A DNA stretch of 64,000 nucleotides from Bacteroidales bacterium. Lineage in GTDB: Bacteria > Bacteroidota > Bacteroidia > Bacteroidales > F082. The translations under genes and the position numbers were made by a program. The stretch lies in NCBI GenBank assembly GCA_016936505.1, contig JAFGXS010000011.1:62001-126000 (forward strand), read 5' to 3'. The first letter of the stretch is position 1. Each line of letters opens with the position of its first letter. Of this stretch, positions 43,810-45,530 are shown in pieces. The notes below the pieces were generated by a model. It ran no database searches and had not been told where the DNA came from. It saw only the letters and a program-made list of their open reading frames with translations.

Positions 43810-44622
43810 ATGATTCAAAACCTTGTTTTTATTTTATCAGCTGTATTCTTTATTGTTACACTGCTGATCATTTACTTTTTTGTGCTCAAACCAAGAAAAG
43901 CACACCCCGAATTATTGAAAAAACCTTTTCCTGAACCTTACAAAAGGATTTTGAAAAAAAGAGTTTTGTTTTACAGAAACCTTCCGGCAGAAAAGAAAAC
44001 AGAGTTCGAAAGGAGAATTCTATTATTCATGGCCGAAAAAGACATCCTTGGTGTTGAAACACAAATTGATGATACGGACAGGCTTTTGGTTGCAGCCAGT
44101 GCAGTAATTCCAATGTTTGGGTACGATTACTTCAGGTATCCAACGGTAAAGGAAGTTTTAATTTATCCCCATTCGTTTGATAAAGAGTTCCAAACAGACG
44201 ACATGGCCCAACAGAAAAATATTTTGGGTATGGTTGGAGACGGGTTTATGCGTGGAAGTGTTGTACTATCAAAACCTGATCTGGAAGCCGCATTTGACGG
44301 AACCCGGCACATACATAATGTTGGCATTCATGAATTCACTCATTTAATTGACGGAGCCGACGGGGCAACTGACGGAGTTCCGGAGATTCTGATTGAACAT
44401 TCCTTTGTAATGCCCTGGCTGAAGGAGATCAGGAGAGAAATGGAAAAAATAGTTAGCCATCATTCAGATATTAATCCTTATGGTTTAACCAATAATGCAG
44501 AGTTTTTAGCTGTGGTAAGCGAATACTTTTTTGACGACCCAGAAAAAATGAAAAGCCGTCATAAGGAACTATACGATATTATGGTTCAGATTTTCCACCA
44601 AAAACCAGACGATTATGTTTAG
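43810..44622 (+). CDS. MtfA-like zinc-dependent peptidase family protein
   Basis: VGIHEFTHLIDGADGATDGVPE HExxH-type motif; N-terminal TM. Confidence 0.85.
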   Translation: MIQNLVFILSAVFFIVTLLIIYFFVLKPRKAHPELLKKPFPEPYKRILKKRVLFYRNLPAEKKTEFERRILLFMAEKDILGVETQIDDTDRLLVAASAVIPMFGYDYFRYPTVKEVLIYPHSFDKEFQTDDMAQQKNILGMVGDGFMRGSVVLSKPDLEAAFDGTRHIHNVGIHEFTHLIDGADGATDGVPEILIEHSFVMPWLKEIRREMEKIVSHHSDINPYGLTNNAEFLAVVSEYFFDDPEKMKSRHKELYDIMVQIFHQKPDDYV

Positions 44623-44711: not shown

Positions 44712-44743
44712 CCATTCACCGACAGGCTTCCGCCGTTCACCGA
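44712..44743 (+). promoter_or_regulatory. Candidate LytTR response-regulator operator: two direct repeats CC[A/G]TTCACCGA, 21-bp period
   Basis: CCATTCACCGA at 44712-44722 and CCGTTCACCGA at 44733-44743, 30 bp upstream of TATATTTG -7 box (44774-44781). Confidence 0.7.
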
Positions 44744-44773
44744 TTTTTGTTTCCCCACAAGAACATTGCAACT

Positions 44774-44781
44774 TATATTTG
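44774..44781 (+). promoter_or_regulatory. Bacteroidota -7 promoter box TATATTTG for the LiaF-like/micro-protein/LytS-LytTR cluster
   Basis: TAnnTTTG consensus, 29 nt upstream of ATG 44811. Confidence 0.55.
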
Positions 44782-44810: not shown

Positions 44811-45530
44811 ATGGAAAACTATTCAAACAGACACAGTGCTTCAAAAGATGGAAAATTTATCATCGGAGGCATATTAATTATTATCGGATTCCTTGCTATG
44901 CTAGGAAACTTCGACTTTATCGACGGTAGTATTTCTCACTACATATTTAACTGGAAAAGCATATTAATTTTTATCGGACTTTACCTGTTGGCAGCACGTC
45001 CTCATAAAAAATCAGGATATATTCTTATAGGTATTGGTGTTATATTCTGGTTACCCGAAATTTTCGGGCAAAGCATTTACCTGCATCAGGTGTTCTGGCC
45101 ATTGGTACTGATTGGTGTTGGGTATCTTTTAATAAGAAGACACCTTAACTCTGACCAGCACCACTCGGGAGAACCTCATGAAAAAGGCGCCGACGGATTC
45201 CTGGAAGACGCCTCAATTTTTGGTGGCGGCATAAAAGTAATTCAGTCCAAAAACTTTAAAGGAGGAAATATCACAGCAATTTTTGGCGGATCAGAATTTG
45301 ATATGCGTGATGTAGAAATGGCAAATGATATAGCTATTATTGATGTATTTACCATCTTCGGGGGAACCAAAATCATTGTTCCTGAAAGCTGGTCTGTTCA
45401 ATCAGATGCTTTCGCAATGTTCGGTGGACTTTCAGACAAAAGAAGAATCAGCATTAAAGATCAGGCAGGAAATAAGTTAATTATTAAAGGACTGGTAATT
45501 TTCGGCGGAGTTGAGATCAAAAGCTTTTAA
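44811..45530 (+). CDS. LiaF-like / DUF5668-type transmembrane protein
   Basis: N-terminal TM repeats followed by beta-rich ...ASIFGGGIKVIQSKNFKGGNITAIFGGSEFDMRDVEMANDIAIIDVFTIFGGTKIIVPESW. Confidence 0.8.
   Translation: MENYSNRHSASKDGKFIIGGILIIIGFLAMLGNFDFIDGSISHYIFNWKSILIFIGLYLLAARPHKKSGYILIGIGVIFWLPEIFGQSIYLHQVFWPLVLIGVGYLLIRRHLNSDQHHSGEPHEKGADGFLEDASIFGGGIKVIQSKNFKGGNITAIFGGSEFDMRDVEMANDIAIIDVFTIFGGTKIIVPESWSVQSDAFAMFGGLSDKRRISIKDQAGNKLIIKGLVIFGGVEIKSF

Follow-up and report, generated by a model that had tools for sequence, protein, structure and literature searches.

A conserved direct-repeat element and candidate operator of a LiaF-LytS-LytTR envelope-stress system in Bacteroidales and more distant bacteria

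Organization of the locus

The window analysed here is a 64,000-nucleotide stretch of the genome of a Bacteroidales bacterium, and the features discussed below lie on its forward strand (Table 1). An operon opens with a gene for a LiaF-like membrane protein, continues with four genes for micro-proteins of about 50 residues, and closes with genes for a LytS-type membrane histidine kinase and a LytTR response regulator. Directly upstream, on the same strand at 43810-44622, is a gene for a protein with an HEFTH metallopeptidase motif, which looks MtfA-like by eye.

In front of the operon lie two 11-bp direct repeats that are identical at 10 of 11 positions, or at 11 of 12 when the preceding G is counted, and whose starts are 21 bp apart. 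They are followed by a T-rich stretch, which stands in place of the Bacteroidota -33 element, and then by a -7 box. The first ATG, at 44811, is 68 bp downstream of the second repeat and starts the LiaF-like gene. The repeats were found just as the first-pass annotation had described them, and its spacings were also borne out (30 bp to the -7 box and about 70 bp to the ATG). It had further placed the operator upstream of a micro-protein cluster; this cluster does belong to the same operon, although the first gene is LiaF-like and not a micro-protein.

The regulator has a receiver domain (Response_reg, 4e-24) and a C-terminal LytTR domain (1.5e-26), and, as had been claimed, it is encoded by the only LytTR gene in the window. 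Residues 202-208, FLRVHRS, match the FhRhHRS DNA-contact motif that has been defined for LytTR domains (PMC4227749), and R204, H206 and R207 are invariant across 22 homologues. A search of the PDB with the regulator returned mainly receiver-domain matches; for the LytTR domain only 3d6w aligned well, and no DNA complex was matched.

Table 1. Features of the operator, the operon and the predicted regulon. Strand is given for features of the window.
Feature	Position or locus	Strand	Remarks
Operator half-site 1, CCATTCACCGA	44712..44722	+	Conserved core YTYACCGA at 44715-44722; footprint in 39 orthologous operators
Operator half-site 2, CCGTTCACCGA	44733..44743	+	Core at 44736-44743; 21 bp (two helical turns) from half-site 1
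T-rich stretch (tttttgTTT) abutting operator	44744..44753	+	Conserved columns 33-42, by column information content
-7 box TATATTTG (Bacteroidota TAnnTTTG)	44774..44781	+	30 bp past half-site 2
LiaF-like membrane protein, 239 aa	44811..45530	+	LiaF-TM, LiaI-LiaF-like_TM1, LiaF-like_C; opens operon
Micro-protein 1, 51 aa	45566..45721	+	KFQQGLFS..NWMN type
Micro-protein 2, 51 aa	45801..45956	+	dN/dS 0.13 against sister species; purifying selection
Micro-protein 3, 51 aa	46014..46169	+	
Micro-protein 4, 49 aa	46194..46343	+	dN/dS 0.06
LytS-type membrane histidine kinase, 351 aa	46409..47464	+	His_kinase PF06580
LytTR response regulator, 253 aa	47468..48229	+	Response_reg and LytTR; FLRVHRS motif; proposed operator ligand
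TolC-TetR-membrane-fusion (RND-type) efflux operon	L010		Strong site, window's genome
PspC-LiaF/Toastrack operon	L011		Strong site, window's genome; most widely shared target
Micro-protein locus	C16:8212		Strong site; two micro-proteins 47 bp behind -7 box
Micro-protein locus	C22:10579		Strong site at contig end
'EEEAYIDDIPFNT'-repeat loci	L193, L196, L199, L202, L205-L207, L211 (three in tandem), L213, L215, L217-L219, L223, L224, L227, L228		

Conservation of the element in relatives

Taken alone, the repeat pair is barely above chance. The window holds 8 positions with at least 10/11 identity at a 21-bp period, and significance at the level of the window was judged insufficient. The exact repeat word, with no mismatches, occurs twice in the window, both times at the operator, and across the 3.04-Mb genome, with up to 3 mismatches allowed, there are 3 matches to the two-repeat pattern and 0 to a reversed-pattern control. 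The operator is regarded as non-random because it is conserved across orthologous loci, not because of the repeat itself.

Of 60 relatives, 43 have an orthologue of the regulator, and the DNA around these genes was compared. Besides the window, 39 loci extended far enough to judge, giving an aligned set of 40 operons. The gene order LiaF-kinase-regulator is conserved in relatives. The element is present upstream of LiaF in 39 of the 40 (38 relatives and the window), always with the 21-bp period, so that the conservation on which the first-pass annotation had staked its reading is borne out. The one exception, L107, has only a doubtful match. A fragmentary second locus of one genome (L110, G052) has no recognisable kinase or LiaF. 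In another genome (G045, L108) LiaF is encoded downstream of the regulator, and the element is found in front of the relocated LiaF.

The element takes the form YTYACCGA-N13-YTYACCGA, followed after 30 bp by a TAnnTTTG -7 box. Across the columns of the 39 operators the footprint consists of C-Y-R-Y-T-Y-A-C-C-G-A twice, the T-rich stretch and TAnnTTTG, with nothing else of note, and ACCGA marks the strongest half-site positions. The -7 box begins exactly 30 bp after the second repeat in 34 of the 39 operators and 31 bp after it in two more.

Distant LiaF-LytTR loci

A search of named genomes returned 80 loci, in 63 of which the kinase and regulator genes come after a LiaF-like gene. The 800 bp upstream of LiaF were searched for half-site pairs with at most 2 mismatches in total at spacings of 15 to 29 bp. 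Pairs at 21 bp occur in 48 of the 63 loci, compared to 0-4 at every other spacing in that range and 0.1 in shuffled sequences. The -7 box of these loci is found at 30 or 51 bp (30+21), in constant helical register, and several loci contain a third half-site, which is also in register.

The matching loci include many titled as Bacteroidota (Pedobacter, Mucilaginibacter, Cyclobacterium, Chitinophagaceae and others), together with loci titled as Acidobacteria and Proteobacteria (Janthinobacterium and beta-proteobacterial MAGs); some MAG labels could be mistaken. Of the named LiaF loci, three labelled Acidobacteria and one labelled Massilia reach a match only at 3 mismatches, and two labelled Proteobacteria (L294 and L307) have no half-site pair match. 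The 17 LytTR loci without a LiaF hit contain no pairs at up to 1 mismatch in up to 12 kb, and three at 2 mismatches; likewise, no close match to the element lies within 1.5 kb of the other LytTR genes of the window's genome. The element follows the LiaF-LytTR operon across phyla.

The predicted regulon

A scan for the pattern together with the -7 box, at up to 3 mismatches, covered 150 genomes of the family. The 70 regulator-bearing genomes contain 288 sites, or 4.11 each (reversed control 1.10), compared to 74 sites, or 0.93 each (control 0.44), in the 80 genomes without the regulator, most of which belong to one genus (g14), so that this contrast counts few independent losses. One genome in the latter group (G065, L229) is only an apparent case of absence, as its contig stops after the LiaF gene.

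Five strong sites are present in the window's genome, one of them at the operon described above. The genome scan that the first-pass annotation had proposed recovers a regulon with separate micro-protein loci (Table 1). The conservation and the regulon give good support to the idea of a regulator that acts on its own cluster and on the micro-proteins within it, but at least five promoters carry the element, not that of the cluster only. Two weaker candidates were treated as chance matches: C25:3530, with 3 mismatches, and C3:136309, with 1 mismatch and no -7 box match.

In a related genome (G025, L214) the element heads the same type of TolC-TetR-RND efflux operon. In sister genera it is found before an outer-membrane beta-barrel protein, a LiaF-ComB pair and an SppA-like peptidase, and very often before secreted 'EEEAYIDDIPFNT'-repeat proteins, alone or with an ABC transporter. 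These repeat proteins are small and secreted-looking, about 90-170 aa long, have no confident Pfam match and are encoded directly behind the operator and promoter; an ABC transporter operon sometimes lies downstream of them. The members of the regulon serve envelope functions.

The micro-proteins

The four micro-protein reading frames of the window form one family, with the pattern MK-x-SxKFxxGYFS...R...NWMNxSNLF. Where dN/dS against the sister species is computable, it points to purifying selection (Table 1). The family has seven members in the window's genome and about nine in that of the sister species. Every assembled copy sits behind the element or inside an operon headed by it. No convincing copy was found in the ten other congeners searched, 8 of which have a 72-aa gene, TM2-like by eye, in the micro-protein slot. 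The micro-proteins are a late addition to an old envelope-stress regulon, confined to two sister species. In one congener (L073, G011) a 330-aa gene for a YhcG/DUF1016-like nuclease (by eye) lies between kinase and regulator.

In both species the assembly is interrupted where micro-protein copies are near-identical (L341, G000 C22; L342, G007 C24), and the true copy number is therefore probably higher than counted. These operator-bearing contigs were considered as a circular element, which was rejected: they have no terminal overlap, and the breaks fall at the near-identical copies.

The micro-proteins are cationic and have no obvious signal peptide, and structure prediction gave no fold (pLDDT 57). 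A low-confidence guess is that their site of action is the inner side of the membrane under stress, or that they exert feedback on LiaF and the kinase.

Proposed mechanism and alternatives

The element at 44712-44743 is very probably the operator of a LiaF-LytS-LytTR envelope-stress system, at which the regulator would bind and activate transcription. Phosphorylated regulator, as a dimer, would bind the two head-to-tail YTYACCGA half-sites, which are separated by two turns and would face the same side of the helix. Held at a fixed 30 bp upstream of TAnnTTTG, it would take the place of a good -33 element and recruit RNA polymerase. At its own promoter this would result in positive autoregulation of the liaF-like gene, the micro-proteins, the kinase and the regulator, with LiaF probably restraining the kinase and envelope stress presumably serving as the signal. 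At the sibling promoters it would switch on the TolC-TetR-RND efflux operon, the PspC-LiaF-Toastrack operon and further micro-proteins.

The same regulator could instead be a repressor, with the repeat overlapping the region upstream of the -7 box and blocking polymerase until stress occurs. Repression by a LytTR protein is known from CoxC, whose direct repeats overlap the -35 box (PMC11347149), and the operator described here abuts a weak -33 region. However, it lies wholly upstream of the -7 box, its offset (30 bp, or 51 bp with one extra period) is of the fixed kind typical of activator-polymerase contact and not of occlusion, and the LytTR operators that offer a precedent upstream of -35 are sites of activation (PMC6193735). 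Repression is accordingly considered improbable.

It is more doubtful still that another transcription factor, of the AraC type or another LytTR protein of the genome, binds the repeats and that the neighbouring regulator is coincidental. AraC-type activators also use direct repeats two turns apart, and the genome has five other LytTR-domain hits; yet the element follows the operon across phyla, moves with a relocated LiaF, has no counterpart beside LytTR genes that lack LiaF or beside the genome's other LytTR genes, and is scarce in regulator-less genomes. A chance repeat without function, which the eight comparable pairs of the window might suggest, is refuted by the footprint, with its deep conservation and invariant geometry, and has almost no probability left.

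Relation to known systems

LytTR operators of the AgrA, ComE, AlgR and HdrR/BrsR type consist of a short direct-repeat pair with a period of about 21 bp (PMC4227749, PMC6193735, PMC11347149). The element resembles them in its direct repeats with a period of about 21-22 bp just upstream of a promoter, in its proximity to a LytTR gene and in the FhRhHRS motif of the regulator, and differs from them in its core, YTYACCGA, and in its tie to a Bacteroidota TAnnTTTG promoter at a fixed 30 bp. The textbook LytTR half-site is [TA][AC][CA]GTTN[AG][TG], which copy 2 fits at 7 of 9 positions and copy 1 at six. Agreement with the classical GTT core, to which the first-pass annotation had fitted the repeat, is only partial, and GTT is not conserved: the conserved core is TYACCGA, and at the G of GTT the family shows A and G equally often.

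In Bacteroides thetaiotaomicron, an LRS-like operon (Zou et al. 2018, Table 3) encodes a Toastrack/DUF2154 membrane protein and a LytTR regulator; immediately before its TGTA-19-TATCTTTG promoter are direct repeats of 11 bp, separated by a spacer of 11 bp (PMC6193735). The two operons share the Toastrack-domain membrane protein, the LytTR regulator, the 11-bp repeats and the promoter type. However, the B. thetaiotaomicron regulator is a membrane-anchored LytTR protein with no receiver domain or kinase, and its repeats, TCCGGTATTCA/ACCGGAAATCA with a period of 22, differ from the operator described here (PMC6193735). LRS regulators are LytTR proteins without phosphorelay, with a membrane inhibitor as sole partner, while the system described here has a receiver domain and a LytS-type kinase.

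The LiaFSR / VraTSR and PSP envelope-stress systems (PMC11237479) likewise combine a membrane protein of the LiaF family with a kinase and a response regulator, and LiaFSR has a similar logic. Here, however, the kinase is of the LytS type (PF06580) and the regulator is a LytTR protein, whereas LiaR is of the NarL/LuxR type; the operon showed no PspA/LiaH. In Flavobacterium johnsoniae, antibiotic-coevolution mutants that had lost susceptibility carried parallel mutations in an adjacent histidine kinase/LytTR pair, and separate hits in tolC of an efflux system (PMC10197871). The same pair of functions is linked here, which is a suggestive lead at the level of function.

Significance

A literature search, with most subscription journals outside its scope, found no report of a YTYACCGA operator or regulon. 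Few regulators of Bacteroidota have a known binding site, and the element would give a readable code of operator plus promoter. On a wider reading, which is likely though less secure than the assignment of the operator itself, it would belong to a regulon for envelope stress that spans phyla and has a conserved cis-code of its own, YTYACCGA-N13-YTYACCGA, which can be lengthened by steps of 21 bp and keeps a fixed phase to the promoter. A variable output slot of this regulon would be filled by lineage-specific small proteins, such as the cationic micro-proteins of about 50 aa in the lineage of the window and the secreted DDIPFNT-repeat proteins of sister genera. Such a regulon would connect efflux pumps and PSP-type membrane proteins with an envelope-stress system that is apparently widespread, would make two families of undescribed small proteins outputs of that system, and may be read directly from genomes.
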